A stretch of 64,000 nt of DNA from assembly GCF_003751635.1 (NCBI RefSeq), contig NZ_RJVI01000002.1, forward strand, positions 1 through 64,000, read 5' to 3'. The stretch is from Inmirania thermothiophila (lineage in GTDB: Bacteria; Pseudomonadota; Gammaproteobacteria; DSM-100275). Of the stretch, positions 1,720 to 22,072 are shown one piece after another. A model generated the notes under the pieces. It saw only the letters and a list, made by a program, of their open reading frames with translations. It ran no database searches and was not told the DNA's origin. A program made the position numbers and the translations under genes. Each line of letters begins with the position of its first letter. The first letter of the stretch is position 1.

Positions 1720-1752
1720 GCCCTCCGCGCCGCGTCACCGCCCGGTAACACG

Positions 1753-1771
1753 GCGAACGCGACGCGTTCGC
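1753..1771. promoter_or_regulatory. Perfect 9-bp inverted repeat, possible operator
   Basis: The sequence GCGAACGCG-A-CGCGTTCGC is a perfect inverted repeat with a single central base. A one-base centre suits a protein-binding palindrome better than an RNA hairpin. It lies about 190 bp upstream of the sigma-54 promoter and 34 bp after the archease-like stop codon. Which protein binds is unknown. Confidence 0.4.
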
Positions 1772-1850
1772 ACCTTCCTTCCAAGGCCCTGTCTTTCCGA
1801 CGCATTCCGCGGCGTTTCCGCGCCGGAACCAACCGGGGGTGGATGCGCCC

Positions 1851-1872
1851 CGGTGTTACCCGCAGGTAACGC
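1851..1872. promoter_or_regulatory. GGTGTTACC-N4-GGTAACGCC inverted repeat, candidate enhancer site
   Basis: Left arm 1851-1859 (GGTGTTACC) and right arm 1864-1872 (GGTAACGCC) match as inverted repeats at 8 of 9 positions around the spacer CGCA. A further GGTAACAC half-site sits at 1744-1751. The repeat lies about 90-110 bp upstream of the -24 element at 1960, the usual distance for an activator binding site. The sigma-54 activator at 14332-15699 is the obvious candidate to bind here; that link is inference. Confidence 0.5.
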
Positions 1873-1958
1873 CGGGGGGCGCCTTTTCGGAGTGGCGCGC
1901 TCGGAAACAGCCCTGCGATCCGCATGGGAACGGGCCTGCGGCCGCGGTCGGCTGCTCA

Positions 1959-1974
1959 TGGCATGCAGGTTGCA
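1959..1974 (+). promoter_or_regulatory. Sigma-54 (RpoN) -24/-12 promoter
   Basis: TGGCATGCAGGTTGCA at 1959-1974 fits the sigma-54 consensus TGGCAYRNNNNTTGCW at every defined position, with the required GG-N10-GC spacing. Transcription would begin near 1985, giving a leader of about 60 bases before ATG 2047. It lies upstream of the molybdoenzyme operon and implies that an AAA+ enhancer-binding protein is needed for expression. Confidence 0.8.
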
Positions 1975-2046
1975 AAGCCAAAGCGCCACGTCTTCGCCGA
2001 GGTGGGGGCGTGCGGGTTTTCAAACGGCCTACGAGGAGGAGTGAAG

Positions 2047-2778
2047 ATGGCATTCAGCTCTCCGGGTCTGCAGGCCGAGCCGTCGCTGGGTGTGCCCGGG
2101 CGCAAGCGCTGGGCGATGGTCATCGACCTGCGACGCTGCATCGGCTGCATGGCGTGCGTCTGCGCCGACAAGTCCGAGTTCGACGTGCCGCTGGGGGTGT
2201 GGCGCACCATCGTCAAGGTCAAGGACACCGGGCGCTACCCCAACACGCGCCGCCACTTCATGCCGCGGCTGTGCAACCACTGCGACAACCCGCCGTGCGT
2301 GCGCAACTGCCCCACCGAGGCCACCTACAAGCACGACGAGGGCTTCGTCCTGCAGCGCTACGAGCGGTGCATCGCCTGCCGCACCTGCATCGCGGCCTGC
2401 CCCTACAACGCCCGCCACGTCCTGCCCAAGAACCGCTCCCACGTGAAGATCGGCGGCGTGGTGGACAAGTGCACCTTCTGCCAGCATCGCGTGGAGAAGG
2501 GGCTGGTCCCGGCCTGCGTGCAGACCTGCCTCGGGCGCTCGCGCATCTTCGGCGACCTCAACGACCCCAACAGCGAGGTCTCGCGCCTGGTCGCGCGCCA
2601 CAAGACCGTGGTCCTCAAGCCGGAGAAGGGCACCTCGCCCCAGGTCTACTACATCAAGCCGGACCGGGCCATCGCCGAGGAGCGCTACACGGCGCCCGAG
2701 TCCTACGCGGCGAAGGCGGACCTCAAGGCCTTCATCCGGCACAACCGCGGCAGCCGGTTCTTCGCCGGCGTGCTCTGA
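2047..2778 (+). CDS. Molybdoenzyme iron-sulfur electron-transfer subunit (DmsB/PsrB/SoeB type)
   Basis: The 243-residue protein has four Cys groups, as in DmsB and PsrB: C31/C34/C37 with C39; C76/C79/C84/C88; C108/C111/C114/C118; and C142/C145/C157/C161. It would pass electrons between the molybdenum subunit (3699) and the quinone-binding anchor (2797). It has no signal peptide, so it is probably exported with the Tat-bearing Mo subunit. The first group is unusual: the family pattern CxxCxxCxxxC would have a fourth Cys at residue 41, but this is Asp (codon GAC), with an extra Cys at 39. The start ATG 2047 follows a GAGGAGGA Shine-Dalgarno; longer upstream starts run through the promoter. Confidence 0.88.
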   Translation: MAFSSPGLQAEPSLGVPGRKRWAMVIDLRRCIGCMACVCADKSEFDVPLGVWRTIVKVKDTGRYPNTRRHFMPRLCNHCDNPPCVRNCPTEATYKHDEGFVLQRYERCIACRTCIAACPYNARHVLPKNRSHVKIGGVVDKCTFCQHRVEKGLVPACVQTCLGRSRIFGDLNDPNSEVSRLVARHKTVVLKPEKGTSPQVYYIKPDRAIAEERYTAPESYAAKADLKAFIRHNRGSRFFAGVL

Positions 2779-2796: not shown

Positions 2797-3672
2797 ATGT
2801 TCGAGTACATGCAGTACAACGTGCTCCCCTGGGGGCGCGAGCTGGCGATCTACTTCTTCCTCGTGGGCATGGCGGCGATGACCTTCGTCCTCGCCGCGGC
2901 GCCCAACGTCTTCGGCGGCGGCACCGCGGCGCTGCAGCCGACCCAGAAGATCGCCTCCGTGGTGGTGCTGGTGCTGCTCGCGGTCTGCGGCGTGATCCTC
3001 ATCGAGGATCTCGGCCAGCCCGGGCGGTTCCTGTATCCGCTGCTCTATTTCCACGTCAGCTCTCCGCTCTCCTGGGGCTCGCTGTTCGTGGTCCTGTTCG
3101 GGCTTGCGGCGCTGGTCTTCGCCTTCGCGGTGTTCACCGGGCGCGACGGTCTGCTCCGCCCGGTGGGGATCGCAGGCTCCGTCCTCGCCCTGCTGCTGCC
3201 GCTCTACACCGGCTGGGACCTGATGGCCAACCAGGCGCGTGAGCTGTGGCACTCGCCGGCGATCCCGCTCATGTTCGTCGCCCTCTCGGTGAACTCCGGT
3301 GTCGCCCTCATGTCGGTGATCGCCATGGCCACCGGGGCCATGAACGAGGAGACGGCGGCATTCCTGCGCCGGGTGCTCGCCTTCTCGCTGGTGGCGACCC
3401 TGGTGATCTTCATCGCCGGTGTGCTGCGCGTGAACTACGGCTCCGCCGAGGAGCAGATCGCCTGGCAGATCATCAACGAGGAGTTCGGGACCAAGTTCTG
3501 GCTCCTGAGCCTCGTGGTCGGGGTCCTGGTCCCGCTGGTGCTGGTGCTGGTGCCGGGCCTGGGGGCCTCGCCCGCCATGATCACCCTGGCCGCGGTGCTC
3601 GCCACCATCGGCGCCTACACCTACCGCGAGGTCTACCTCCTCGCGGGCCAGCTCCCCATGCTCACCTTCTGA
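2797..3672 (+). CDS. NrfD/PsrC-type quinone-interacting membrane anchor subunit
   Basis: The 291-residue protein is almost entirely hydrophobic, with about eight to nine predicted transmembrane segments, the first beginning near residue 14 (AIYFFLVGMAAMTFVL). The FFLVGMAA start, the GHSTP-like central region with conserved charged residues, and the position between an Fe-S subunit and a Mo-bisMGD subunit fit the NrfD/PsrC/SoeC family. This anchor binds quinone and tethers the complex to the periplasmic face of the membrane. A GGGGAGGGGTGA stretch precedes ATG 2797, and the gene starts 18 bases after the Fe-S subunit stop, consistent with one operon. Direction of electron flow (quinone reduction or quinol oxidation) cannot be told from this subunit. 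Confidence 0.85.
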   Translation: MFEYMQYNVLPWGRELAIYFFLVGMAAMTFVLAAAPNVFGGGTAALQPTQKIASVVVLVLLAVCGVILIEDLGQPGRFLYPLLYFHVSSPLSWGSLFVVLFGLAALVFAFAVFTGRDGLLRPVGIAGSVLALLLPLYTGWDLMANQARELWHSPAIPLMFVALSVNSGVALMSVIAMATGAMNEETAAFLRRVLAFSLVATLVIFIAGVLRVNYGSAEEQIAWQIINEEFGTKFWLLSLVVGVLVPLVLVLVPGLGASPAMITLAAVLATIGAYTYREVYLLAGQLPMLTF

Positions 3673-3698: not shown

Positions 3699-6362
3699 AT
3701 GAGCGAGCTCAAGATCAGCCGACGCAACTTCCTCAAGCTGGGCGGCGCGGTTGCCGGTGCCAGCGGCCTGACCCTCGGCTCCCGGCGCCTCAAGGCCATG
3801 GAGCAGGATCTGGGCGGGCGCGACTACTCCGCGGTCACCGGCGCCGAGCGCAAGGCGGTGCCCTACACCTGCCTGACCTGCAACATCGAGGACGGCGGCG
3901 TGGCCTTCGTGGAGAACGGCCGCATCGTCAAGCTCGAGGGCAACATGGACCACCCCAACACCCGCGGCAAGCTCTGCGCCAAGGGCAACTCGGGGTGGCT
4001 CCACGTCTACGACCCCGACCGCATCATGACCCCGCTGATGCGCACCGGCAAGCGCGGCGAGGGCAAGTGGCGGCGCATCAGCTACGACGAGGCCACCAGC
4101 ATCGTCGCCAAGAAGCTGCGCGAGGTCATCGACCGCTCGATCCGCGAGCACGACCCCGGGATCCGCAACGAGATCGTCTTCAAGTGGGGTCGCAACCGCA
4201 CCGGCGGCGCCATCAAGCGCTTCATGCACGCGCTGGGCTCCAACTCGCTGGTCAACCACACCAACATCTGCGAGTCCTCGAAGAAGGTCGGGCTGGAGCC
4301 GGCCTGGGGTCCCGACATCGAGTCCTGCGACTGGGCGAACACGAAGTACATCCTCAACTTCGGCTCCAACATCCTGGAGGCGGCGTACTTCATGAACCCC
4401 AACGCCCAGCGCTGCGTCGACGGCGTCGTGGGCAACAAGGCCAAGATCGTCACCTTCGACGTGCGCATGTCCAACACCGCCGGCTGGTCCGACGAGTGGC
4501 ACGCGCCCTATCCCGGCACCGACGCCGCCATCGCCCTGGCCATGGCCCACGTGATCATGAACGAGGGCCTCTACGACGACGAGTTCATCCGCGACTGGAC
4601 CAACGTCACGCCGGAGCAGCTCAAGGCCCACCTCAAGCCCTTCACGCCGGAGTGGGCGGAGAAGGAGTCGGGCGTGTCGGCGCGCGACATCCGCCGCATC
4701 GCGCGGGAGTTCGCCACCACCAAGCCCGCCACCACCTTCTCCTACCGCGGCCCGTGCAAGCACGTCTACGGCTCCTACCAGGAGGCCGCGATCCAGATGC
4801 TCAACGTCATCACGGGCAACGTGGAGACCCGCGGCGGCTACTGCCTGCCCCGGGGCATGGGCTGGCCGCAGCCCGAGCCGGTGCCGCCGAAGCCGCCGGT
4901 GCCGAGCGTCATCGGCGCGCCGCCCATCTATCCGCTCGCGTCGCACGCGGTCTCCACGCATGCGCCGTACCAGGTGATGGCGGGCGAGGCCAAGGTGTCG
5001 GTCTGGTTCGCCTACTACGACAACCCGGTCTACACCTATCCGGCCGCGCACGTCTGGGAGCGCTTCCTCAAGGACGAGAAGCTGGTGCCGTTCTACGTCT
5101 CCTTCAGCCCCTACATGTCGGAGACGACGGAGCTTGCCGACCTCATCATCCCGGACGTGACCTACCTCGAGCGGCACGATCCGGAGTCCATGCCGGGCGG
5201 GCTCTATCCCTGCCTGTCCATCCGGCAGCCGGTGATCCAGCCCCTGGGCGGCACCCAGGAGTTCCGCCAGACCCTCATCGACATCATCCACAAGGTGGAT
5301 CCGGACGGCTCGCTCGGGATCAAGAAGTACTTCGCCTTCAAGAACCCCGAGGAGTGGATGCGGGCCCACTTCGACAACATCCCCGGGCTCAAGGAGGAGG
5401 GCGGCTGGGACTTCCTCAAGGCCAAGGGGGTGTGGCCCATCTACGGCAAGGTGGACAAGGAGACGGCCAAGATCGTCGACCGCAACGGCGAGGAGGTGCA
5501 GCCGGACTACCAGCTGCACAAGCGCGAGCTGAGCGCGGCCGAGATGGAGGGCGCCGAGGTGGGGCCCGACGGCGTCATCCGCAAGGACGGCCATCCCATC
5601 GGGGTGCGCATCCGCGGCCGCAACTACGTCGGCTTCGGCACGCCGTCGCGGCGGATCGAGCTCTACAAGGAGAGCTACCGCAAGTACGGCTTCAACCCGC
5701 TGCCGACCTACAAGCGGCTGCCCTCGCGCAACAAGAAGCCGGACGAGCTGGTGCTCACCACCTACAAGGTCAACGTCCACACCCAGAGCCGCACGGCCTC
5801 CATCAAGTACCTCGCCGAGCTCTACCACAAGAACCCGGCGTGGATGAACCCGAAGACGGCGGCCGCCCGCGGCCTCAAGGACGGCGACCTCATCCGCATC
5901 ACCTCGCCCATCGGCTACATGGTGACGCGGGTGCACGTCACCGAGGGCATCCACCCGGACGTGGTGGCGGTCTCCACCGCCTGCGGCCACTCCGCCTACG
6001 GGCGCCTGGCGCAGCTCAAGCACAAGGAGAAGGCCGCGGAGTGGGCGCAGGGTGGCGATCCCGACATCACCCACAACGTCTGGTGGGACGACAAGGGCGT
6101 GCACCCCAACTCCATCATCCCGGTGCAGGTGGACCCCATCGGTGGCTCCCAGGGCTGGTACGACACGGTGGTCACCGTGACCAAGGCCCAGCCGGGCGAC
6201 AAGTACGGTGACGTGGTCGCCGACTTCGAGAAGGCGGTCAAGGCCTACGAGCATCAGCTCCGCTACGCCTACACCGGCGATCTCCACCGCGCGAACCACC
6301 CCGAGGTGGACATCGACTGGGACAGCCTGCCGAAGCCCGAGGTGAAGGCCGGCGGTCACTGA
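3699..6362 (+). CDS. Molybdopterin oxidoreductase catalytic subunit, DMSO-reductase family (PsrA/PhsA/ArxA/SoeA-like)
   Basis: The 887-residue protein starts at ATG 3699 behind AGGAG (3686-3690). A twin-arginine signal (SRRNFLK, residues 7-13) precedes a hydrophobic stretch, so it is a folded, cofactor-loaded Tat substrate. The N-terminal Fe-S region has C58, C61 and C93, but residue 65, where CxxCxxxC enzymes have the third Cys, is Asp. C191 in NHTNICESS lies where PsrA/PhsA-type enzymes place the cysteine that binds molybdenum. The C-terminal part (LVLTTYKVNVHTQSRT, then LKDGDLIRITSPIG) is the molydopterin dinucleotide-binding domain. It should form a periplasmic ABC complex with the two preceding genes. 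Sulfur compounds, arsenite/arsenate or another oxyanion are all possible; I do not assign a substrate. Confidence 0.88.
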   Translation: MSELKISRRNFLKLGGAVAGASGLTLGSRRLKAMEQDLGGRDYSAVTGAERKAVPYTCLTCNIEDGGVAFVENGRIVKLEGNMDHPNTRGKLCAKGNSGWLHVYDPDRIMTPLMRTGKRGEGKWRRISYDEATSIVAKKLREVIDRSIREHDPGIRNEIVFKWGRNRTGGAIKRFMHALGSNSLVNHTNICESSKKVGLEPAWGPDIESCDWANTKYILNFGSNILEAAYFMNPNAQRCVDGVVGNKAKIVTFDVRMSNTAGWSDEWHAPYPGTDAAIALAMAHVIMNEGLYDDEFIRDWTNVTPEQLKAHLKPFTPEWAEKESGVSARDIRRIAREFATTKPATTFSYRGPCKHVYGSYQEAAIQMLNVITGNVETRGGYCLPRGMGWPQPEPVPPKPPVPSVIGAPPIYPLASHAVSTHAPYQVMAGEAKVSVWFAYYDNPVYTYPAAHVWERFLKDEKLVPFYVSFSPYMSETTELADLIIPDVTYLERHDPESMPGGLYPCLSIRQPVIQPLGGTQEFRQTLIDIIHKVDPDGSLGIKKYFAFKNPEEWMRAHFDNIPGLKEEGGWDFLKAKGVWPIYGKVDKETAKIVDRNGEEVQPDYQLHKRELSAAEMEGAEVGPDGVIRKDGHPIGVRIRGRNYVGFGTPSRRIELYKESYRKYGFNPLPTYKRLPSRNKKPDELVLTTYKVNVHTQSRTASIKYLAELYHKNPAWMNPKTAAARGLKDGDLIRITSPIGYMVTRVHVTEGIHPDVVAVSTACGHSAYGRLAQLKHKEKAAEWAQGGDPDITHNVWWDDKGVHPNSIIPVQVDPIGGSQGWYDTVVTVTKAQPGDKYGDVVADFEKAVKAYEHQLRYAYTGDLHRANHPEVDIDWDSLPKPEVKAGGH

Positions 6363-7245: not shown

Positions 7246-8409
7246 ATGGCCATGAAGGTGCTCATGGTGGAGGCGAGCGGGCGGGGCTTTCTTGCCCACC
7301 ACGCCCAGGCCCTTGCTGCGGGCCTCGCCGGTGCGGGGGCGCGGGTGCGCATGGCGACGGCGGCGGGGGACGAACTCGCGGGGTGGCAGGCGCCCTTCGA
7401 GCGGCGGCACTGCCCCGGGCGGGACTGCTGGGGCTGGCTGCGCCGTGAGGTGACGACTTGGCGCCCGGAGGTGGTTCACCTGCAGTGGGTGGACAGCGCG
7501 TGGCAGGCGTGGCGGTTCACCCGCTGGGCGCAGCGGCAGGGCGCGGCGGTGCTCGCGAGTCCGCACAACATCCTGCCCCACCGCGGGCGGCTGCGGCGGC
7601 TGCCGGCGCATCTGCTCTGGTACCGGGCGCTGGATGCGGTGGTGGCCCGGGACGCCCACCTGGGCTGGGCGCTGGAGGAGATCTTCGGCCTGCCCAGGGA
7701 GCGCGTGGTGGTGGACGAGCGCACGCCCAACCTCATGGGGCTTCCGGGCTTCCCGCGCCGCAGGCCGCCGGAGCTTGCGCCCAGGGCCGCGGGCGAGCTG
7801 CGCCTGCTGGTCTTCGGGCACGGCGCGCCCAGCAAGGGCGTAGGGGTGCTGCTGGAGGCTCTCGCCGGGCTCGAGGCTCCGGGGCTGCACCTGGTGCTCG
7901 CGGGCCAGGACCCGCTGCGGGGGGTGCCGGCGGGGCGGCTGGGGGCGGCGCGGCGGCGGGTGCGGGTCAGCGTCATCGACCGCTACCTGGAGCCCGCGGA
8001 GGGGGCCTGGCTGCTGCGCGACGCGGATCTGCTGGTGCTGCCCTACACCAAGCTCTGCCACAGCCCCCAGCTTGCGCTTGCGCGCGACTGCGCGCTGCCG
8101 GTGCTGCGCACTCACCGCGTCCAGGGCATGGACTTCGCGGAGGGGCGGGATGGTGTTACCGTGAAGGCGGGCGAGGGGGCGGCGCTGCGGGAGGCGCTGG
8201 CGGCACTCGCGGCGCAGCCCGGACGTCTCGCCGCGATGCGGCGGGCGCTGGCGGAGGCGGCGCAGGCGGAGGCGGCGCTTGCGGGGCTTGCGCGGATGCA
8301 TCTCGCACTCTACGAGCGGCTGCGGCAGGGTGCGGCGGCGCGGGCCGCGGGACGGGCCGCGATGCAGGCGCGCCGGAGCATCGGAGCCGGCGCCGGCGGG
8401 GGAACATGA
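7246..8409 (+). CDS. Glycosyltransferase family 4 (GT-B fold) protein
   Basis: The 387-residue protein has the two-Rossmann GT-B layout. The N-terminal half begins MKVLMVEASGRGFLAHHAQALAAGLAGAG and includes VVHLQWVDSAW. The C-terminal half has RLLVFGHGAPSKGVGVLLEAL, typical of the nucleotide-sugar domain of group 1 transferases, and LLRDADLLVLPYTK, the usual region after the donor-binding loop. It has no signal peptide and is presumably cytoplasmic or membrane-associated. ATG 7252 (MKVLM) is an equally good start. Its last bases overlap the next gene (ATGA, 8406-8409), so it shares a transcript with a redox cluster, an odd partner for a glycosyltransferase. Donor and acceptor are unknown. Confidence 0.75.
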   Translation: MAMKVLMVEASGRGFLAHHAQALAAGLAGAGARVRMATAAGDELAGWQAPFERRHCPGRDCWGWLRREVTTWRPEVVHLQWVDSAWQAWRFTRWAQRQGAAVLASPHNILPHRGRLRRLPAHLLWYRALDAVVARDAHLGWALEEIFGLPRERVVVDERTPNLMGLPGFPRRRPPELAPRAAGELRLLVFGHGAPSKGVGVLLEALAGLEAPGLHLVLAGQDPLRGVPAGRLGAARRRVRVSVIDRYLEPAEGAWLLRDADLLVLPYTKLCHSPQLALARDCALPVLRTHRVQGMDFAEGRDGVTVKAGEGAALREALAALAAQPGRLAAMRRALAEAAQAEAALAGLARMHLALYERLRQGAAARAAGRAAMQARRSIGAGAGGGT

Positions 8410-8816
8410 CGGCGGCACAGACGGTCATTCTCATCGCGCACGAGGGGCGGCTGGAGGAGCTGCTCAAGCTCATGGAGAAGCGCCGGGAGGTGTTCGAGCA
8501 CTACCGGCTGCTCGCCACCAGCGAGACCGGGGCCGCGATCGAGGAGCGGCTCGGCCTCGAGGTGACGCACCTCTTCTCCGGGCGCAAGGGTGGCGAGATC
8601 CAGCTCTGCGGGCTGGTCTGCACCAACAGCGTGCGCGCGGTCTTCTTCCTGCGCGACCCTGCGGGTGCGGCCCCGGACGAGCCCGACATCACCCCCTTCT
8701 ACCGTGCCTGCGACCTCAACAACGTCCCGTTGGCCACCAACCTGGGCACGGCGGTGGCGCTCACCCAGTGGCTGGGGCGCAAGGTGGCCCGCGGCAGGGA
8801 GGAGGCGGCCCCGTGA
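8406..8816 (+). CDS. Methylglyoxal synthase-like protein with altered active site
   Basis: The 136-residue protein aligns along its whole length with methylglyoxal synthase (MgsA), which turns dihydroxyacetone phosphate into methylglyoxal: ILIAHEGRLEELLKLM, LLATSETGAAIEERLGLEVTHLFSGRKGGE, FFLRDP and PLATNLGTA are all recognisable. The catalytic positions differ. The Asp of the GGDQQ motif (Asp71 in E. coli) is Glu, and the His of PHDPD (His98) is Asp in PDEPD, while the last Asp of that motif (Asp101) is kept. The protein may therefore have another role. It overlaps the glycosyltransferase (ATGA) and the ferredoxin gene (GTGA), so it is translationally coupled to both. Confidence 0.7.
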   Translation: MTAAQTVILIAHEGRLEELLKLMEKRREVFEHYRLLATSETGAAIEERLGLEVTHLFSGRKGGEIQLCGLVCTNSVRAVFFLRDPAGAAPDEPDITPFYRACDLNNVPLATNLGTAVALTQWLGRKVARGREEAAP

Positions 8817-9994
8817 GGATGGACGATCTCGCCCAGGCGGTGCAGGCCCTCGACGGCTCGGCCCTGGTGGTGGACGACGAGTTCTGTCTCAACCTCAGGG
8901 GCCGCAGCGAATGGTGTTCGGCCTGCGCCGACGTCTGCCCCCATGAGGCCCTGGCCCTGAGCCTGGACGAGGTGGCGCTGGACGGGGAGCGCTGCACCGG
9001 CTGCGGCGCCTGCGTCCCGGCCTGTCCGGCGGGGGCCTTACGGCTGACGGGGTTTTCCCCGGCGCGGCTGCTGGAGACGGTGGCCGGGCAGGAGACGGTG
9101 CGGCTGCACTGCCGGGAGAGTCGCAGCCGCGCAGGCGGGGTCGTGATCCCCTGCCACGCGGTCCTCGATGCGCGCCTGGTGGCGGCGATGGCCGCCGACG
9201 GCGTCGCCGAGGTGGTGCTGCACGGTCTCGAGGGCTGCGAGGGCTGCGCGCGGGGTGACGCCCGCGCGGCGGTGGAGCAGGTCCACGAGCGGCTCTCGGC
9301 GTGGTTCGGGCCGCAGGCGCCCAAGCTGCGGGCGGCCGACGGCGCCGAGGAAGGCGCGGCGCAGGCAGGGGACGTGCGCGCGCGCGCCGACCAGGTGCGC
9401 ATGAGCCGGCGCGCCTTCCTGCGCTTCGCGGGGGCGAGGGCCGCCGACGGCGCGCTGGCGGCGGTGCCCGCCACCTGGGCGCTCGCCGCCGAGGACGAGG
9501 ACGAGCGCCTCGACCTCGACGAGCCGTCGCCCTTTTTCCAGGGCGAGGTGGAGCGCCAGCGCGAGGCGGCCTACCAGGCGGTGCTCGCGCCGCGGCTCGC
9601 CGGGCTGCCCTGGGTCGCCGATCTCGAGGCTCCGCCGTGGCGGGGGCGGCGCATCGAGGCCCACTGCACCGCCTGTCTGAGCTGCGGCACCCGCTGCCCC
9701 ACGGGGGCGCTGCGGGCGGAGGAGAGCGACGGGGAGCGGCGCATCGTCTACGACGCCGCCCGCTGCACCGACTGCGCCCTGTGCGAGCGGATCTGCCCGG
9801 CGAAGGCGATCCACCCGGAGCCGGCCCCGCCGGCGGTGGTGCGCGAGGGGACGGTGGTGCTGATGGCACGGGCGCTGGTGCCCTGCGCCCACTGCGAGAC
9901 GCCCTATCTGCCGGAGTCGGAGGACGGGCTGTGCCCGACCTGCCGCAACGAGCGGGAGCTCGACGACGAATGGATGTCCTGGCTCGGAGGCTGA
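8813..9994 (+). CDS. Multi-cluster 4Fe-4S protein with internal twin-arginine-like motif
   Basis: The 393-residue protein contains two ferredoxin-like modules. The N-terminal one has C35xxC38xxxC42P and C61xxC64xxC67xxxC71P. A middle domain carries C100, PC114 and GC142xxC145. The C-terminal module has C285xxC288xxC291xxxC295P and C318xxC321xxC324xxxC328P, then a CxxC...CxxC ribbon (C358, C361, C374, C377). Between the halves lies SRRAFLR (198-204) followed by an Ala-rich stretch, which looks like a Tat signal in mid-protein, as if a cytoplasmic ferredoxin were fused to a NapF/NapG-like one. GTG 8813 is chosen because GGGAGGAGG ends 7 bases before it; ATG 8819 is the alternative. Its electron partners are unknown. 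Confidence 0.75.
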   Translation: MRMDDLAQAVQALDGSALVVDDEFCLNLRGRSEWCSACADVCPHEALALSLDEVALDGERCTGCGACVPACPAGALRLTGFSPARLLETVAGQETVRLHCRESRSRAGGVVIPCHAVLDARLVAAMAADGVAEVVLHGLEGCEGCARGDARAAVEQVHERLSAWFGPQAPKLRAADGAEEGAAQAGDVRARADQVRMSRRAFLRFAGARAADGALAAVPATWALAAEDEDERLDLDEPSPFFQGEVERQREAAYQAVLAPRLAGLPWVADLEAPPWRGRRIEAHCTACLSCGTRCPTGALRAEESDGERRIVYDAARCTDCALCERICPAKAIHPEPAPPAVVREGTVVLMARALVPCAHCETPYLPESEDGLCPTCRNERELDDEWMSWLGG

Positions 9995-9995
9995 G

Positions 9996-10259
9996 GTGCG
10001 GTGGCTGGTGGCGGTCGCGGCGGTCTCGCTCGGCGGCGCGGCGTGGTGGTGGTCGGCCCAGCCGCGCACGCCGGCGGAGCTCTTCCGCACCCGCTGCGCC
10101 ACCTGCCATGAGCTGCCGGACGTCTGCGTCTTCGCGCCGGCGGACCGGCCGTCGATCGTGGACACCATGCGCAGCGCCAACGGGGCCGATGCCGTGATCG
10201 ACCCCGAGGAGGCGGCGCGCATCAAGGCGTATCTGAGGGAGGGCCTGAAGTGTCCGTAG
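9996..10259 (+). CDS. Small membrane-anchored mono-haem cytochrome c
   Basis: The 87-residue protein starts at GTG 9996. An N-terminal hydrophobic segment (WLVAVAAVSLGGAAWWW) could be an uncleaved signal anchor. One haem c motif, CATCH, follows at residues 34-38. The downstream part includes PSIVDTMRSANGADAVIDPEEAARIKAYL, the helical C-terminal half found in small cytochromes c, with a Met in DTM that could be the axial ligand. It would lie on the periplasmic side of the membrane. It starts 1 base after the Fe-S protein stop and overlaps the next gene by 10 bases. Confidence 0.75.
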   Translation: MRWLVAVAAVSLGGAAWWWSAQPRTPAELFRTRCATCHELPDVCVFAPADRPSIVDTMRSANGADAVIDPEEAARIKAYLREGLKCP

Positions 10260-11319
10260 AGGACGCGGCCCGCAAGCTGGGCCTGGAGCAGCGGGTGCTG
10301 GCGGCGCTGACGGCGGTCACCGTCGGCGTCGACGGCAGCGACGTGGTCACCTCGGGGCAGGTCTACGACGTCGTCGCCACGGGCGGCGCGGTGCGCATCC
10401 TCATCGACCCGGACAAGGTGCCGGAGCCGCTCCAGGAGGAGCTGGCGCAGGTGATCGCGCCCTACGTGGAGTCGCTGCCCGGGGTCGAGCGCGTGGTGGT
10501 CAAGCCGCGGCCGCGGCCGGTGGCGCAGCGCGAGCGCATCCCGGGGATCGCCCACGTGGTGGGCGTGCACAGCGGCAAGGGGGGCGTGGGCAAGTCGACG
10601 GTGGTGGTCAACCTCGCCGTCGCCCTGGCCCAGCGCGGCCTGCGCGTGGGGCTGCTGGACGCGGACGTCTACGGACCCTCCTGCCCGACCCTGCTCGGCC
10701 TCTCGGGCCGGGCCGAGGAGGATCCGGAGCAGGGCCGGATCGAGCCCAAGGTCGGGCACGGGGTCAAGGTCATGTCGCTCGGCTTCCTGCTGCCGGAGGG
10801 GCAGGCGCTGATCTGGCGCGGATCGCTGGTGGACGAGGGCCTGCCGCAGCTGTTCGAGCACGTGGCCTGGGGCGAGCTCGACGTGCTCCTCATCGACCTT
10901 CCGCCCGGGACCTCCGACGTGCACATCGCGGTGGCGCGCTACGTGCGGCTTGCCGGCATCGTCACCGTCACCGCGCCGGGGCAGGTCTCGGTGGACGACG
11001 TGCGCCGCGGCATGGAGATGTTCGCGGACATGGCGGTGCCCTGCCTCGGCCTGGTGGAGAACATGAGCGGCGTGGCCTGCCGCGGCTGCGGCCACGTGGC
11101 GGCGGTCTTCGGCGCCGGCGGTGCGCACGAGCTCGCCGAGCAGACCGGGCTGCCGCTGCTGGCGGAGATCCCCTTCGAGCCCGAGGTGAGCGAGCTCTGC
11201 GACGGCGGCCGTCCGGTGGTCACGGCGGCACCCGGCTCGCGCACCGCGGAGGGGATCGAGCGCATCGCCGCCGCCCTCGTGGAGCGGCTGGGTCTCGGCG
11301 CGCGCGTGGAGGCCTCGGC

Positions 11320-11323: not shown

Positions 11324-12258
<935 letters not shown>

Positions 12259-13050: not shown

Positions 13051-13511
13051 TGCGGCGTCTCGCCGCCGTCCTCCTGGCCCTCGCCGCGGGCGCGGCGGCG
13101 GCCCAGGTCGGCGCCGTGGACGCGGCCGCCTTGGCGCGCTGGCTCGAGGCCGGCGAGGCGGTCACCGTGATCGACCTGCGCCCGCAGGGGGACTACCTCG
13201 CCGGCACGCCGGTGGGGGCGCTGCACGCCGACCCCGCGCGGCCCGAGGCGGTGGGCCTGCCGGAGGGGGGCGGGCGCGCCGTGCTGCTCCTGCCGGCCGA
13301 CGCCGACGAGGGTCTGGTGGCGCGATGGGGGGCGGCGCTCGCCCGGACGGGCTACCGCGCCTATCGCCTGGCGGGGGGCGTGGAGGCGTGGAAGGCCGCC
13401 GGACTTGCGCTGGAGGTCCCGGGGGTGGGGCGGGTGCGCCCGGATTCCGTCCCCTTCGTGGTGCCGCGGGGGCTGTGCGAGATGAACACCCCCGCCCAGG
13501 TCTTCCGCTGA
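13050..13511 (+). CDS. Exported rhodanese-like domain protein lacking the catalytic cysteine
   Basis: The 153-residue protein has a signal peptide (MRRLAAVLLALAAGAAAAQ) followed by a single rhodanese fold: VTVIDLRPQGDYLAGTPVGALHADP, a central strand, and YRAYRLAGGVEAWKAAGL. In active rhodaneses a Cys sits in the loop after the central strand; here that region reads LLLPADADEG with no Cys. The only Cys of the mature protein is near the C-terminus (PRGLCEMN). It may bind a sulfur compound or a partner rather than act as a sulfurtransferase. The start ATG 13050 overlaps the previous stop. The pentahaem cytochrome gene follows 3 bases later, so both should act in the periplasm. Confidence 0.75.
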   Translation: MRRLAAVLLALAAGAAAAQVGAVDAAALARWLEAGEAVTVIDLRPQGDYLAGTPVGALHADPARPEAVGLPEGGGRAVLLLPADADEGLVARWGAALARTGYRAYRLAGGVEAWKAAGLALEVPGVGRVRPDSVPFVVPRGLCEMNTPAQVFR

Positions 13512-13514
13512 GGC

Positions 13515-14429
13515 GTGGCCTGGGCGGCGGTGGCGGCGGCGCTGGCCGCGTGCGCCGGCTGCCACCCGGGGGCGACCGCGGACTTCGCCGGCACCGCGAT
13601 GGCGCGCGCGGCCTCGACCCCGGGCTTCGTGGCGGAGTGGGGGCGGGCGGGGCGCGACCCCGCCTGCCTGCGCTGCCACGCCCCCGCTGGGGGCCCGGGC
13701 GTCGGGTGTGCCGCCTGCCACGGCGAGGGCCATCCCGGGGCGCAGGCGGACCCGGTGCGGGCCTGTGCCCGCTGCCACGACGCACCGGGGGAGAACACCC
13801 TGCGCAGCTATGCAGCGAGCCGGGCGGCGCGCGCCGGGCGGACCTGCATCGACTGCCACGCCCCGCGGGGACGGCCCCACGCCCTACGGGGACCCGCCAC
13901 GGGGGCGCTGCTGCCGGGGTCGGTGGATCTGACCGGCCTGTGGCGGGGCGACGAGGTGGAGCTGGTGCTGGCGGCGCGGGCGGGGCATGCGGTGCCCGGG
14001 GGGACCTCGGGGCGGGCCCTGTGGCTGGTGGCGGAGGCCCGCGACGGTGCCGGGCGCGTGGTGGCCGAGGCGCGCTGGCGCTTCGGCTGGGAGTACGCCG
14101 ACGGGGGCTGGGTCGACCGGACCCTGTGGCCCGACCGGCCGGCCCGCCGCCGATTCGCCGTCCCGCCCCAGGCGGTGGCGGTGGCGGCGCGGGTGCTCTA
14201 TCGCCTTGCGCCGTCGCCCGAGCCCGAGGGGCCCGACGCCGTCCTCGTCGCCCGCCGGCGCTGGCGCCGGCCGGCGGTGGGGCGGCGAGGCGCTGATACA
14301 ATGAACGATCCGGACCGCCGGGGAGGATGGCATGGCACGGTTGTGCCTGGTGGAGGACGATCCCATCATGGGCGAGTCGCTGAGCGACCGCTTCCTGCTG
14401 GAGGGGGTCGCCTGCGACTGGTTCCGTGA
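13515..14429 (+). CDS. Pentahaem cytochrome c, probable lipoprotein or membrane-anchored
   Basis: The open frame of 304 codons starts at GTG 13515. Five haem c motifs are visible: CAGCH (13-17), CLRCH (51-55), CAACH (65-69), CARCH (84-88) and CIDCH (111-115). The rest is a beta-rich domain with GHAVPGGTSGRALWL, the GHxxPxG element that supplies a distal His in several multihaem cytochromes. The N-terminus is a short hydrophobic signal ending in LAAC, so the lipobox Cys would coincide with the first Cys of CAGCH. The frame runs 98 bases into the response-regulator gene and its last 40 or so residues look like unselected sequence. The true end may be nearer 14290 if there is a frameshift, but the sequence as given has no earlier stop. 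Confidence 0.7.
   Translation: MAWAAVAAALAACAGCHPGATADFAGTAMARAASTPGFVAEWGRAGRDPACLRCHAPAGGPGVGCAACHGEGHPGAQADPVRACARCHDAPGENTLRSYAASRAARAGRTCIDCHAPRGRPHALRGPATGALLPGSVDLTGLWRGDEVELVLAARAGHAVPGGTSGRALWLVAEARDGAGRVVAEARWRFGWEYADGGWVDRTLWPDRPARRRFAVPPQAVAVAARVLYRLAPSPEPEGPDAVLVARRRWRRPAVGRRGADTMNDPDRRGGWHGTVVPGGGRSHHGRVAERPLPAGGGRLRLVP
14297..14302 (+). promoter_or_regulatory. Possible -10 element (TACAAT) of the response-regulator gene
   Basis: TACAAT at 14297-14302 stands out in GC-rich sequence, 30 bases before ATG 14332. No convincing -35 is visible. It lies inside the 3' part of the cytochrome reading frame, which suggests that the regulator has its own promoter. Confidence 0.4.
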
Positions 14430-15699
14430 CGTCGGGGCCGCCCTGCGTGCGCTCGGGCGCGGCGGCTACGCCGCGGTGGTGAGCGACATCCGCCTGCCCG
14501 ACGGCAGCGGCGAGGATCTCTTCCTCGCCCTGCGCGAGCGCCTGCCGGCGGTGCCGCCCGTCATCTTCATCACCGGCTACGGCCAGGTGGAGCAGGCGGT
14601 GCGGCTGCTCAAGCTGGGGGCGCGCGACTACATCACCAAGCCCTTCGACCTCGACGCCCTGCTGGAGAAGCTGCGCGGGACGGCGCCGGAGCTCTTCGCC
14701 GAGGACGGCGGCGAGGCGGTCCTCGGGGTCTCCCCGGCGATGCGGTCCGTGGAGGCGATGCTGCGCCGCTTCGCCCCGCACCGCACCACGGTGCTGATCA
14801 CGGGCGAGTCCGGCGTGGGCAAGGAGCATGCCGCCCGCTTCCTCCACGCATGCGGCGGCGCCGAGCGCCCCTTCGTGGCGGTCAACTGCGCCGCCTTCCA
14901 GGAGTCGCTGCTGGAGGCGGAGCTCTTCGGCTACGAGAAGGGGGCCTTCACCGGCGCCGTGCGCAGCCACCGCGGCGTCTTCGAGCGCGCCCACGGCGGC
15001 ACCCTGTTCCTCGACGAGGTGGCGGAGATGTCGCCGGCGATGCAGGCCAAGCTCCTGCGCACGCTGCAGGAACGCACGGTGCAGCGCGTCGGCGGGGAGC
15101 AGCCGCTGGAGGTGGACGTGCGCCTGGTCTGCGCCACCAACCGCGATCTGCGCACGATGGTGGAGGCGGGGGCGTTCCGCGAGGACCTCTACTACCGCAT
15201 CCATGTCGCCCACGTCGCCATCCCGCCCCTGCGCGAGCGCCGCGAGGACGTGCTGTGGTTCGCGCACCGCTTCGTCGAGGAGTTCGCGCGCGCCCACGGC
15301 GAGCCGCGCCATCTGCTCCCGGTGGCCGAGCGCTACCTGATGGAGCAGGACTGGCCGGGCAACCTGCGCGAGCTGCGCCATGCGGTGGAACGCGCCTGCA
15401 TCCTCGCCGACGGCCCGGCCATCGGTCCGCGCGAGCTGGGGCTGGGCCGGCAGGGGGCGGCGCAGCCCGCGGCCGAGCGCATGGACCTTAGAGGCTTTCT
15501 CGAGCACTGCGAGGCGCAGTACATCCGCGACGCGCTCGAGGCCCACGGCTGGCGCATCGCGGAGACCGCGGAGGCCCTCGGCATCAGCCGCAAGAGCCTG
15601 TGGGAGAAGATGCGCCGCCACGGCATCCGCGCCGGCGACGGGCGGGGTGGCGCCGAGGGTGCGGACGGGGATGCGACGCCGGGGGAGGGTGGGTCATGA
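14332..15699 (+). CDS. Sigma-54-dependent response regulator, NtrC family
   Basis: The 455-residue protein has three domains in order. The receiver (about 1-118) has acidic residues ED at 8-10 and the phosphorylatable Asp52 in VVSDIRLPDG. The AAA+ domain (about 135-370) has Walker A GESGVGKE, the sigma-54 contact motif GAFTGA, and Walker B GGTLFLDEVAEM. The C-terminus is a Fis-type helix-turn-helix (WRIAETAEALGISRKSLWEKMRR). Intact GAFTGA means it should activate sigma-54 promoters. The only consensus sigma-54 promoter I found in the window lies upstream of the molybdoenzyme operon (1959-1974). The kinase at 19735-21225 is the nearest candidate partner. GGGAGG at 14321-14326 supports ATG 14332. 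Confidence 0.9.
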   Translation: MARLCLVEDDPIMGESLSDRFLLEGVACDWFRDVGAALRALGRGGYAAVVSDIRLPDGSGEDLFLALRERLPAVPPVIFITGYGQVEQAVRLLKLGARDYITKPFDLDALLEKLRGTAPELFAEDGGEAVLGVSPAMRSVEAMLRRFAPHRTTVLITGESGVGKEHAARFLHACGGAERPFVAVNCAAFQESLLEAELFGYEKGAFTGAVRSHRGVFERAHGGTLFLDEVAEMSPAMQAKLLRTLQERTVQRVGGEQPLEVDVRLVCATNRDLRTMVEAGAFREDLYYRIHVAHVAIPPLRERREDVLWFAHRFVEEFARAHGEPRHLLPVAERYLMEQDWPGNLRELRHAVERACILADGPAIGPRELGLGRQGAAQPAAERMDLRGFLEHCEAQYIRDALEAHGWRIAETAEALGISRKSLWEKMRRHGIRAGDGRGGAEGADGDATPGEGGS

Positions 15700-16625
15700 T
15701 CCTGAGCCAGAACCTGCGCATGTTCCTGCTCGCCGCGCGCCACCTCAGCTTCACGGTGGCGGCGCGCGAGGCCTACGTCTCGCAGCCGGCGGTGACGGTG
15801 CGGATCAAGAAGCTGGAGGAATACCTCGGCTTCGAGCTCTTCACCCGGATGCCGTCGGGGCTGCGGCTGACGCCGGCGGGCAGCGTCTTCTACGAGTACG
15901 CGCAGCGCCTCGAGCTGCTGGCCTCGGAGGCGCAGCGCACGGCCAAGGACGTGGCCGAGGGCGACGAGGCCCATCTCTACCTGGGGGCGAACCGCAGCGC
16001 GACCTCCTACATGCTGCCGCGGCTGCTGATCGCCTTCCACGAGGCCAACCCCAAGGTGCGCATCCGCACCGAGGTCCACGCCTCGGACCGGCTCCTGGAG
16101 CGTCTCACGGCGGGCTATCTGGATGCGGTCATCGTCGAGCAGTCGGTGGACGAGTCGCGCTACCACGTCATGCCGCTGCTCAAGGACGAGGTGGTGGTGA
16201 TCTGCAACCGCGACCACCCGTTGGCGAAGCGGCGCAGCCGTACGGTGACGCTGGACGAGCTCTGCGAGCTGCCGCTCGTCACCCACGAGCCCAACTCGGG
16301 CACGCGCCAGCTCCTCAGCGAGCGCCTCGCCGTGGAGGGCAGGAACGACAGCGATCTCAACATCGTCATGGAGCTGCAGAGCAGCGAGCTGGTCAAGCTC
16401 ATGGTGAGCCGCGGCCAGGGGGCGGGGCTGGTCTCGCGCCTGTCGCTCTCCAACGGCCGCTACGGCGAGGAACTGGTGGTCCTCAGCATCGAGGGCGACC
16501 CCCTCTACCGCTTTTTCAACCTGGTCACCACCGAGAAGGGGCTGGGGCGGGCCAAGGTGCGCGATCTCTGCCGCATCGCCGGCGAGACCTACCGCGAGGA
16601 CATGCTCTTCGAGGAGACGGGCTGA
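15696..16625 (+). CDS. LysR-family transcriptional regulator
   Basis: The 309-residue protein starts with a LysR-type winged helix-turn-helix (NLRMFLLAARHLSFTVAAREAYVSQPAVTVRIKKLEEYLG), continues through the linker helix, and has a substrate-binding domain from about residue 90. It starts at ATG 15696, overlapping the regulator stop (GTCATGA), so the two are coupled. Its target and inducer are not known. The end of the binding domain (FFNLVTTEKGLGRAKVRDLCRIA) resembles the CbbR/CysB side of the family only in general terms. The gene converges on pntB. Confidence 0.88.
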   Translation: MILSQNLRMFLLAARHLSFTVAAREAYVSQPAVTVRIKKLEEYLGFELFTRMPSGLRLTPAGSVFYEYAQRLELLASEAQRTAKDVAEGDEAHLYLGANRSATSYMLPRLLIAFHEANPKVRIRTEVHASDRLLERLTAGYLDAVIVEQSVDESRYHVMPLLKDEVVVICNRDHPLAKRRSRTVTLDELCELPLVTHEPNSGTRQLLSERLAVEGRNDSDLNIVMELQSSELVKLMVSRGQGAGLVSRLSLSNGRYGEELVVLSIEGDPLYRFFNLVTTEKGLGRAKVRDLCRIAGETYREDMLFEETG

Positions 16626-19490: not shown

Positions 19491-19673
19491 GACCGCACCT
19501 CCTCCCGTTGCGGGCCCCCGGCCGCCGGCGCCCCCGCGGCCGCAGGGCGGCCGCACCCAAGGCCGGTGTGCCGGCCCGCAGGATCGTCTCGGCGGGTTGC
19601 GCGCTGGATCCCGCAGCGGTCGCCGGCGGACGCGCGGGTGCCCATCGACTCTTCTGCTGCAGGGATCAGGAAG

Positions 19674-19702
19674 TCTAATGGGCGGCCGCCCGGGGCTGCC
19701 AA
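19674..19702 (-). promoter_or_regulatory. Sigma-70-type promoter of the pnt operon
   Basis: On the minus strand TTGGCA (19702-19697) and ATTAGA (19679-19674) are separated by 17 bases. This lies in one of the least GC-rich stretches of the area, about 180 bases before the pntAA start. An inverted GTCTAA (19673-19678) / TTAGAC (19713-19718) pair brackets the promoter and could be an operator. The region 19491-19734 has no gene. Confidence 0.6.
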
Positions 19703-19734
19703 TAACGTTTTGTTAGACAGGGGCCATGTATCCC

Positions 19735-21225
19735 CTATGGGAGGACACCGATCTCCCGATCGGGCGGGTGGCCGGGTGCGTCCTCCCGGTCCAGGGGGAG
19801 GGTGACGCGGAAGCGGGTGTCCCCGGCCTCGCTGGTGACCTGGATCTCCCCGCCGAGGCCGTCGACGATCTGGTAGGTGACCCAGAGGCCGAGCCCGCGC
19901 CCGCCGGCCTTGGTGGTGGCGAAGGGCTCGAACAGCCGCGGCAGGGCCTCGGCGGGGATCGGGGGGCCGTCGTTGCAGACCTCGAGCCGGACGAGGCCGC
20001 CCTCGATCGAGGCGCGGACGCCCACGCGGCCGCCCTCGGGGGCGGCCTGGACGGCGTTCAGCAGGAGGTTGATGAGGACCTGGCGGACCAGGCTCGCGGG
20101 CAGGCGGGTGCGCTCGGGGATGCGGTTGTCCCACGCGAGGGTGATGCCGCGGCGGCCCGCCTCCGGGGCCACCAGCCGGCGCACGTCCTCGATGTCCTCC
20201 CGGGTCAGGGGGTGGGGGTCGGGACGCGCCTCCACCAGGAGCGCGGCCACGGTCTCGCGGATCTGGTGCAGGCCGCGCTCGAGCAGGGAGACGGTGCGCT
20301 GGGTGAGGGGGTCGTCGCAGCCATGGCGGCGCAGGGTGCTCACGGCGTTGAGCAGCCCGCCGAGGGGGTTGTTGATCTCGTGGGCGATGCCGGCGGTGAA
20401 GCGGCCGATGGCGGCGAGCCGCTCGGCCACCACCATCTGCTGTTCCAGGCGCTGCTTCTCGCGCAGCTCCGCCACCATGCGCTCGAACTGGACCGCGAGC
20501 TGGCCGATCTCGTCCCCCGCCGCGGGCAGCTCCAGCTCCACCCGCTCCGGCACCTCGCGGCCCACCGCGCGCATGGCGCGCGCCAGGCGCACCAGCGGCT
20601 CGGCGTACTGGGCCCCCCAGTAGGCGCCCAGCGGCAGCAGGAAGACCACCGCAAGCAGGGTCGCGGCGACGGCGCGGCCGCCGAAGCCGAGGATGCGCTG
20701 GCGGAAGATCTCGCGCGGGTAGGACATCACCAGCGTCCCCAGGAGGACGCCGTCGGAGACGATGGGCACGGTGACGTGGAAGCCCTGACCCGAGGGGGGG
20801 GTGAAGGTCTGCTCGGTGCCGGTGCGCGCGGCGGCGACGAGGTCGCGCACGGCGGCGTACTCGGGGCCGTCCTCGCCGGGGTCGCTCTGCATCGGGAAGC
20901 GCCGCGGCTCGGTGGAGACGTAGACCCGGGCCATGGGGTCGAGGATCATCAGCAGGTCCGGCCGCAGTCCGCCGCGGGCGTGGGCCTCGGGAAGGGCCGA
21001 GGCGATGATCTCGTAGGCCTTCCAGACGTCGTCGTGCAGCAGCGCCGGGGTGAGGGTGCGGGCCAGCAGGCGGCCGGTGGCGGTGGCGGTGGCGGTGAGG
21101 TCGGCGCGCAGGTCCTGCGCCGCGCGCACGAGCAGGGCGCTGGTCACCACCAGCGCGGTGACGAGGATGAGGACGGTGGTGCGCAGCGGCACCTTGTAGC
21201 GCAGGCTGAGATCCCGCAGGGTCAT
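19735..21225 (-). CDS. Membrane sensor histidine kinase, NtrB-like
   Basis: The 496-residue kinase has a transmembrane segment at about 15-35, a periplasmic domain, a second transmembrane segment at about 182-205, a HAMP-like linker, then a dimerisation domain with His282 in GIAHEINNPLGGLLNAV. The ATPase domain follows with NLLLNAVQAAPEGG (N box) and GGRGLGLWVTYQIV (G2 box). The HEINNP form is typical of kinases paired with NtrC-type regulators. It starts 4 bases after the stop of the PhnD-like binding protein, so the two should sense a ligand together. No response regulator is adjacent; the NtrC-type regulator at 14332 is the likely partner. Confidence 0.88.
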   Translation of the reverse strand: MTLRDLSLRYKVPLRTTVLILVTALVVTSALLVRAAQDLRADLTATATATGRLLARTLTPALLHDDVWKAYEIIASALPEAHARGGLRPDLLMILDPMARVYVSTEPRRFPMQSDPGEDGPEYAAVRDLVAAARTGTEQTFTPPSGQGFHVTVPIVSDGVLLGTLVMSYPREIFRQRILGFGGRAVAATLLAVVFLLPLGAYWGAQYAEPLVRLARAMRAVGREVPERVELELPAAGDEIGQLAVQFERMVAELREKQRLEQQMVVAERLAAIGRFTAGIAHEINNPLGGLLNAVSTLRRHGCDDPLTQRTVSLLERGLHQIRETVAALLVEARPDPHPLTREDIEDVRRLVAPEAGRRGITLAWDNRIPERTRLPASLVRQVLINLLLNAVQAAPEGGRVGVRASIEGGLVRLEVCNDGPPIPAEALPRLFEPFATTKAGGRGLGLWVTYQIVDGLGGEIQVTSEAGDTRFRVTLPLDREDAPGHPPDREIGVLP

Positions 21226-21229
21226 GGCG

Positions 21230-22072
21230 TCAGGGGGCGACGGCGAGCATCATGGCGCGGATGTCGGCGAAGAGGGTGTCGTCGCCCGGGGTGAAGCCGT
21301 CCAGATTGAGCCGCGCGAGGATCTGCCGGCCCTCGGGGTCGCGCGCCATCCCCACCAGCACCCGCCGCAGGGCCGCCACCGTCGCCTCGTCCGCGTCGGC
21401 ACGGGCGACGATGGGCGGGAAGCCGAACTTGCGCGAGCGCTCCACCACCCGGGTGCGCGCGGTGAGCTGCGGCTCGGTGCGCGCGAGGCTCTCCCAGATG
21501 TAGCCGTCGACGGCGCCGCCGTCGGCGAGGCCCACCGCCACCGCCTCCACCACCTTGCGGTGGGCCCAGGTGAAGAAGGTGCGGCGGAAGAAGCGGGCCG
21601 GATCCCGCCCGAGCGTGCGCAGGCGGTACTGGGGCACGAGGAAGCCGGAGTTGGAGTCCGGGTCCGAGTAGGCGAAGACCCTGCCATTGAGGTCGAGGAT
21701 GGAGCGCGTGTCGGTGTCGGAGGCGGGCACGATGAGATAGGACTGGTAGAGGGGCTCGCCGCGATAGAGGGGCACCGCCACCAGCCGCAGGCGCTCGCGG
21801 AAGCGCACGTAGGGGAAGCCGCAGAGCCAGGCGGCCTCGGCGCGCCCGGTGACGAGCAGCTCCACCACCTCGCGGTAGGCGGTGCGCTGGACGAACGCCA
21901 CCGGCCGGCCGAGACGCCGCGCCAGGTAGTCGCGCCACTGCTCCAGAAGCCCCGTGCGGTCGTCGAGGATGACCGCGGTGAGGCCGATGCGCAGCGGCGG
22001 CGCCGGCGAGGCGGGGGCGGGGCCCAGCAGGAGCACGAGCCCCAGGATGAACGCGCGCGTCACCGTCTTCAT
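21230..22072 (-). CDS. PhnD-like periplasmic binding protein, probable sensor partner of the kinase
   Basis: The 280-residue protein has a signal peptide (MKTVTRAFILGLVLLLGPAPASP) and the PhnD/phosphonate-binding fold: LRIGLTAVILDDRTGLLEQW, YREVVELLVTGRAEAAWLCGFPYV, FAYSDPDSNSGFLVPQY and FFRRTFFTWAHRKVVEAVAVGLADGGAVDGYIWESL. No ABC permease or ATPase accompanies it; the next gene is the histidine kinase. That arrangement matches AioX/ArxX, where a PhnD-like protein detects an oxyanion and hands the signal to a kinase. An AAAGG Shine-Dalgarno supports ATG 22072. Transport of phosphonate is the less likely alternative. Confidence 0.8.
   Translation of the reverse strand: MKTVTRAFILGLVLLLGPAPASPAPPLRIGLTAVILDDRTGLLEQWRDYLARRLGRPVAFVQRTAYREVVELLVTGRAEAAWLCGFPYVRFRERLRLVAVPLYRGEPLYQSYLIVPASDTDTRSILDLNGRVFAYSDPDSNSGFLVPQYRLRTLGRDPARFFRRTFFTWAHRKVVEAVAVGLADGGAVDGYIWESLARTEPQLTARTRVVERSRKFGFPPIVARADADEATVAALRRVLVGMARDPEGRQILARLNLDGFTPGDDTLFADIRAMMLAVAP

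Follow-up and report, generated by a model that had tools for sequence, protein, structure and literature searches.

The window analyzed here, the whole 64,000-nucleotide stretch at the start of contig NZ_RJVI01000002.1 of Inmirania thermothiophila, carries a molybdoenzyme operon whose first four genes encode an iron-sulfur (Fe-S) subunit, a membrane anchor, the molybdenum (Mo) subunit and a chaperone (B, C, A, and D, respectively), along with genes for a binding protein (X), a histidine kinase (S) and a response regulator (R), together XSR. The counterparts of these three proteins, AioX/ArxX, AioS/ArxS, and AioR/ArxR, govern arsenite oxidase genes via sigma-54. We consider the best overall explanation to be an arsenite-induced XSR/RpoN circuit that controls a quinone-linked molybdoenzyme of a separate family, most likely one that oxidizes arsenite, and assign this reading a probability of about 0.6. 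It is based on the homology, residue conservation, synteny, promoter conservation and phylogeny of both circuit and enzyme, whose components in the window are as follows (Tat, twin-arginine translocation; bisPGD, bis-pyranopterin guanine dinucleotide).

1814 to 1829, no strand assigned: second GTTN10AAC match, GTTTCCGCGCCGGAAC, a possible second R site (pattern search)
1855 to 1870, no strand assigned: AioR/ArxR-type box, GTTACCCGCAGGTAAC, the core of an inverted repeat (fits GTTN10AAC, kept in orthologs)
1959 to 1974, plus strand: sigma-54 (-24/-12) promoter, TGGCATGCAGGTTGCA (pattern search; RpoN is encoded in the genome)
2047 to 2778, plus strand: B subunit, four [4Fe-4S] clusters (16 Cys), without a Tat signal of its own (sequence and family searches)
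2797 to 3672, plus strand: C subunit, membrane anchor of the NrfD/PsrC type (Pfam NrfD, 1e-33)
3699 to 6362, plus strand: A subunit, Mo-bisPGD catalytic, Tat-exported, with Fe-S motif C58/C61/D65/C93 and Mo ligand C191
6448 to 7170, plus strand: D, assembly chaperone of the TorD/NarJ type (Pfam Nitrate_red_del)
14332 to 15699, plus strand: R, sigma-54-dependent response regulator of the AioR/ArxR type (55-56% to ArxR and the R of Azoarcus sp. KH32C)
19735 to 21225, minus strand: S, histidine kinase of the AioS/ArxS type (periplasmic N-terminus 40% to ArxS)
21230 to 22072, minus strand: X, predicted periplasmic arsenite-binding protein of the AioX/ArxX type

The window X protein scored 239 bits (E 6e-70) against the AioX crystal structures, 117 bits against ArrX and 52 bits against the phosphite-binding PtxB. 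The arsenite pocket of AioX consists of Tyr88, Cys106, Tyr131, Ser161, Ser163, His192, and Asp210 (PMC5908839), and in our alignment all seven contact residues are present in X. The equivalent of Cys106 was found in each of the 59 aligned X homologs that cover that column, and is replaced by Gly in a phosphonate transporter protein. S and ArxS share 46% identity across 479 aa, and 40% (E 4e-38) in the periplasmic part, residues 1-204. R has a receiver domain, an AAA+ domain with GAFTGA and a Fis-type helix-turn-helix, and its scores were 468 bits to ArxR (55%), 340 bits to AioR of NT-26 (45%) and 302 bits to its best paralog in its own genome. The pocket of X, the periplasmic part of S, the type of R and the box with its promoter all have the character of an AioXSR/ArxXSR module, and each of the three proteins is related to its Aio and Arx counterparts over the full length. 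The initial annotation had described 14332-15699 as an NtrC-type regulator with intact GAFTGA, which the domain search bore out, and had placed the kinase directly beside a PhnD-like protein without a transporter, which also proved correct; modABC comes next, on the opposite strand, and so the PhnD-like protein has no transporter of its own. TtrS-like sensing was rejected (71 bits vs. the NF040750 cut-off of 750).

When 84,980 species genomes were scanned, the Mo subunit was found to have 53 orthologs, which share 57-79% identity with it and come from alpha-, beta- and gammaproteobacteria. X was present in the 10-kb flanks of 48 of these, mostly together with S and R, and four of the five orthologs without X are on contigs that are cut short; the remaining one (L136) has complete flanks and lacks XSR, and also lacks both the box and a -24/-12 element. 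Two gene orders occur. In clade 1 (71-79% identity, the type found in the window), the order is B-C-A-TorD-GT-MGS-Fdx-Mrp-Mrp-...-cytochrome-X-S-R on a single strand (GT, glycosyltransferase; Fdx, ferredoxin), and in clade 2 (57-61%), R-S-X is divergent from B-C-A-TorD. Named cultured carriers include Azoarcus sp. KH32C, Aromatoleum toluclasticum, Thauera aminoaromatica, Hydrogenophilus thiooxidans, and Allochromatium humboldtianum.

The window departs from the clade 1 order in that R lies behind the cytochrome gene while X-S are situated past a LysR gene and pnt, on the opposite strand and adjoining modABC. Taken alone this layout would suit an arrangement in which the Mo operon is separately controlled and the three regulatory genes go together with others (the LysR gene, pnt or modABC). 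We consider such an arrangement highly improbable, given the synteny in 48 of the 53 orthologs, with X-S-R directly downstream (clade 1) or divergent (clade 2), and the matching R box carried by the Mo promoter. Since X-S-R is one block in clade 1 and R alone is in that place in the window, the split is a local rearrangement, and the gene orders indicate that R kept its ancestral place and X-S moved across pnt. Orthology and synteny across about 50 genomes therefore back the initial annotation in assigning the three genes to a single circuit that serves the molybdoenzyme and is divided by pnt. The LysR regulator between R and pnt (15690-16625) is closest to NF040786 (selenium metabolism-associated LysR).

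The promoter region was also in agreement with what had been described from the sequence. TGGCATGCAGGTTGCA matches 10 of the 11 fixed positions of TGGCACG-N4-TTGC and, confirming the sigma-54 promoter claimed at 1959-1974, is the only match to the tight pattern TGGC[AC]NG-N4-TTGC in the 64-kb window. The inverted repeat noted about 100 bp upstream is present at 1852-1873 (GGTGTTACC-CGCA-GGTAACGCC, with one mismatched pair), and its core, the GTTACCCGCAGGTAAC box, precedes the -24 element by 104 bp and fits GTTN10AAC, the binding consensus of AioR, whose footprint covers GTTCGGATTTCCGAAC (PMC5335332). Among 51 ortholog promoters, 41 have GTTN10AAC and 43 a good -24/-12 element. The box is 60-130 bp upstream of a good element in 33 of the 51, whereas these loci show such a pairing at 1 of their 680 other gene starts and in 0.07% of windows drawn from them at random. 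Distances from box to promoter cluster at 92-95, 103-104 (which includes the window), and 111-113 bp. The host genome has one copy of RpoN and about 15 sigma-54 activators. From these sequence data we regard it as very likely that R governs the operon through RpoN. Four Rhodocyclales loci (L135, L143, L152, and L155) have an additional GTTN10AAC-like motif, GTTGCGTAAAGGAAAC or GTTGCTGAAAGGAAAC, which lies some 100 bp before B and overlaps the -12 element.

Surveying from the side of the sensor, we found 26 plasmid records with X, of which 22 had AioA, two had ArxA (Sulfuricella and Cereibacter ORIO) and one had the B-C-A-D operon (Azoarcus sp. KH32C). The 26th, the Methylorubrum extorquens AM1 megaplasmid (L197), has X and S near arsC genes, and a search of the replicon gave no match to AioA. 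In 399 sampled genomes of the phylum every X homolog of at least 44% identity adjoins an AIO, ARX or B-C-A-D operon, with a single exception, a duplicate copy consisting of X and S only. Homologs of 36-39% in five sampled genomes were left out of this count because their neighbors are other kinases and none of these enzymes. In the X tree, the AIO, ARX and B-C-A-D-operon sensors are interleaved and group mostly by taxon; for example, a Hydrogenophaga AIO sensor falls among the Comamonadaceae sensors of B-C-A-D operons. XSR trees have likewise been reported to track 16S, not the enzyme (PMC5908839), and we therefore argue that these sensors do the same job.

Arsenic genes are found around many of these operons. 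On the KH32C plasmid, arsR-arsC-arsD-arsA-acr3 adjoins R-S-X and B-C-A-D, and KH32C, G321, and 16 of the 53 orthologs have flanking ars genes beyond a lone arsR, as compared to none of 21 control loci, although these controls are few and incompletely matched. The initial annotation had considered that the sensed compound may not be the one expected of such a module; the pocket, the sensor tree and the neighboring ars genes point to arsenite instead, and we expect, with good confidence, that arsenite is the signal for XSR. Neither AioA nor ArxA was found when the host genome was searched for them. Similarly, among 36 genomes with the B-C-A-D operon, 4 had AioA over the cut-off, 4 had full-size ArxA and 29 had neither, absences that are soft as many of the carrier genomes are metagenome-assembled. 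One carrier, Herbaspirillum sp. ST 5-3 (L141/G469), has AioA, ArxA and the B-C-A-D operon in a single genome, and in G321 the B-C-A-D operon with XSR is directly followed by a true arx cluster, which has a second XSR of its own (L094-L095).

The Mo subunit itself does not belong to any of the known families with which we compared it. The identity of A is 30% with a PsrA-like protein, 29% with PhsA, 28% with ArxA and 24% with ArrA. There is no meaningful match to AioA, and A falls below the cut-off of every curated family model. Its Fe-S motif is C58-x2-C61-x3-D65...C93 (CxxCNxxD...C), in which Asp replaces the usual third Cys. This makes the region unlike that of ArxA, as the initial annotation had remarked of canonical ArxA, and suggests an aspartate-ligated Fe-S cluster. 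The motif, H187, C191 (the Mo ligand by alignment), K195, K196, and the pair G164-R165 are invariant in all sampled XSR-linked A proteins, and the G164-R165 pair is also present in the ArxA and ArrA alignment rows. The phylogeny that had been proposed as a check places the XSR-linked A proteins outside both ArxA/ArrA (support 100/100) and PhsA/PsrA (100/99).

Assignment to specific families was rejected in each case: ArxA, based on 28% identity, the separate clade, the approximately unbiased (AU) test against union with it (p 2e-32) and gene order (B-C-A-D with the B2 homolog downstream vs. arxB2-A-B-C-D); AioA, based on TIGR02693 (30 bits vs. a cut-off of 359) and on its absence from the searched host genome; ArrA, based on NF041714 (188 bits vs. 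1600) and the tree; PhsA/PsrA, based on NF012032 (379 bits vs. 694) and the 100/99 separation; TtrA, based on NF011567 (119 bits vs. 1750); and SoeA, based on the Tat signal of A, whereas SoeA is cytoplasmic without Tat. By reading, the host genome also has, at another site, a gene for a cytoplasmic SoeA-like protein. An AlphaFold model of A from a 20-row alignment was poor (mean predicted local distance difference test score 63, predicted template modeling score 0.66, low around the active site) and no active-site claim is based on it; Foldseek with this model placed PsrA, acetylene hydratase and ArrA on top, which confirms the fold only.

Related Mo proteins were also observed outside the XSR-linked set. 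Those of G101, G145, G236, and G089 are about 42% identical to A, and these and that of G144 (L101, L104, L105, L106, and L108) are XSR-less sisters that lost the Mo-ligand Cys; the G144 protein has also lost its N-terminal Fe-S cysteines. Such sisters may use another ligand or bind no Mo. Our trees did not resolve the branching among the two XSR-linked clades and these sisters. More distant proteins of 32% identity in Thermomicrobium, Rhodococcus jostii RHA1, and Natrinema (L174, L175, and L176) represent an uncharacterized related family, the genes of the last two being followed by one for an Mrp/NBP35 ATPase.

Several points weigh against an arsenite oxidase under arsenite control. The closest characterized enzymes by sequence are polysulfide and thiosulfate reductases, not arsenic enzymes, and both clades have rhodanese-like proteins, a hint of sulfur chemistry. 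The ars neighbors are mostly those of clade 2, and in the window such genes are 29 kb distant. ArrX binds arsenate yet has the same pocket residues (PMC5908839), and therefore the pocket does not fix the choice of ligand. Lastly, G321 and three other genomes also have ArxA, in G321 with its separate XSR, which could mean that the B-C-A-D enzyme has a different substrate.

One alternative is that XSR senses a sulfur or other oxyanion, that the enzyme is a PsrA/PhsA-like sulfur enzyme and that the link to arsenic is accidental, and PhsA and PsrA are indeed the best family-model and structure matches, with some carriers being, by name, sulfur oxidizers or phototrophs. We consider this unlikely, however, because the pocket has the arsenite Cys, the sensors are interleaved with AioX/ArxX, ars genes are in the flanks, and both the PhsA model score and the tree separate A from these enzymes. 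A stronger alternative, although still one we think distinctly less probable than arsenite oxidation, is that the circuit senses arsenite and the enzyme acts on thioarsenite/thioarsenate or antimonite, or reduces arsenate. Non-redundant roles are suggested by ArxA with the second XSR in G321 and by the operon sharing a genome with AioA and ArxA in Herbaspirillum ST 5-3, and the same alternative would accommodate the rhodanese-like and Mrp accessory proteins, and the positions -4 and +5 relative to the Mo-Cys, which are His and Lys as in the ArrA alignment rows. Against it are the lack of another arsenite oxidase in most carriers, an R of the AioR/ArxR and not the ArrR type (PMC5908839), and isothermal titration calorimetry, which showed no binding of antimonite, thiosulfate or tetrathionate by either AioX or ArxX (PMC5908839). 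On balance we slightly favor an enzyme that oxidizes arsenite and feeds the quinone pool.

From these observations we infer a ligand, a phosphotransfer chain, a substrate and a reaction direction for the arsenite-induced circuit. Periplasmic arsenite would be bound by X (21230-22072) via the Cys and the oxyanion pocket, X would signal to the kinase S, and S would phosphorylate R. R would then act on the GTTN10AAC box(es) near 1814-1870 to give RpoN-dependent transcription from 1959-1974. The predicted product is a Tat-exported, quinone-linked molybdoenzyme with A as the Mo subunit, B as the Fe-S subunit, C as the NrfD anchor and D as the chaperone, which would oxidize arsenite to arsenate and pass the electrons to the quinone pool, as with ArxABC. 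The operon would also supply accessory redox and assembly proteins, including an ArxB2 homolog, from the genes listed here.

7246 to 8409, plus strand: glycosyltransferase-like protein, kept in clade 1 operons
8406 to 8816, plus strand: small MGS-like protein, kept in clade 1 operons
8819 to 9994, plus strand: polyferredoxin, ArxB2 homolog over its full length (28%, ~380 aa)
9993 to 10256, plus strand: small c-type cytochrome, one CxxCH, start uncertain
10250 to 11323, plus strand: Mrp/NBP35-type ATPase 1
11320 to 12258, plus strand: Mrp/NBP35-type ATPase 2
12286 to 13050, plus strand: protein with a weak His_biosynth match; clade 2 operons have a similar domain
13050 to 13511, plus strand: exported rhodanese-like protein (clade 2 counterpart 32%)
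13515 to 14429, plus strand: multihaem c-type cytochrome, 5 CxxCH

Two further groups of genes in the window are associated only.

22172 to 24701, plus strand: modABC molybdate transporter, adjoining X (read from translations, no family search)
50950 to 52930, minus strand: arsR-arsC-acr3 arsenic resistance genes, 29 kb off

In the literature on XSR with other enzymes or on further arsenite oxidases, we found Aio, Arx, a Soe-like arsenite oxidase candidate of Thioalkalivibrio (PMC6620896) and NaoABC, none of which is the B-C-A-D family. In at least one study, a strain reported to oxidize arsenite without AioA or ArxA led to the conclusion that an unknown enzyme must exist (PMC6620896). No description of the B-C-A-D family was found among 5.39 million open-access papers, and a prior description in a subscription paper or preprint is possible. 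Judged from its genes, the B-C-A-D set is a candidate third bacterial route of arsenic transformation. We give even odds to the fuller proposition that it is a third respiratory arsenite oxidase family, previously unrecognized and independent of AioBA and ArxAB, which would span dozens of alpha-, beta- and gammaproteobacteria, many without known oxidases, and would have been recruited under the same arsenite sensor module. As arsenic-cycling surveys count aioA, arxA, and arrA, all of them would miss a third arsenite-controlled molybdoenzyme. The operon also shows one sensor module in the service of at least three unrelated enzyme types. As the operon is present in named cultured strains, the idea is testable by gene deletion.

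Of the known systems, the arx cluster (arxXSR, arxB2ABCD) has the most in common with the operon in the window: the XSR module, sigma-54 control, an ArxB2-like polyferredoxin, a Tat-exported Mo subunit, a 4x[4Fe-4S] subunit, an NrfD anchor and a TorD-type chaperone. It differs in that the window has the order B-C-A-D, an A that shares only 28% identity with ArxA and falls in a different clade (AU p 2e-32), the CxxCNxxD motif, and the Mrp, rhodanese-like and cytochrome genes. ArxB2 is a protein typical of arx clusters (PMC6549141), and since a homolog, which also has a central domain of unknown function, is present in the window at 8819-9994, arxB2 is not arx-specific. The aio cluster (aioXSR, aioBA) shares the XSR module, GTTN10AAC box and RpoN promoter; however, AioBA consists of a Rieske protein and a Mo subunit without a protein ligand to Mo, whereas the window enzyme has no Rieske subunit. 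Arr with ArrXSR likewise has a PhnD-like sensor, kinase and regulator beside a molybdoenzyme, although ArrR is CitB-like and, unlike the window R, lacks AAA+ (PMC5908839).

PsrABC and PhsABC have the same three-subunit plan and provide the nearest solved fold and sequence (2vpw), but they are 29-30% identical and in a separate clade, A is below the PhsA cut-off, and the loci seen in this comparison have flanks without XSR. Beyond the XSR-linked set, the proteins most closely related to A and B are those of G101, G145, G236, and G089, in which the flanks are without XSR and the Mo-ligand Cys is replaced. Finally, NaoABC is a newly described quinone-linked antimonite oxidase of the dimethyl sulfoxide reductase family (PMC11521347), and identity with it was set aside based on that description, in which NaoA is placed close to NapA and a Rieske domain is part of NaoC (PMC11521347), whereas the window enzyme has an NrfD anchor and a position on the PsrA side.

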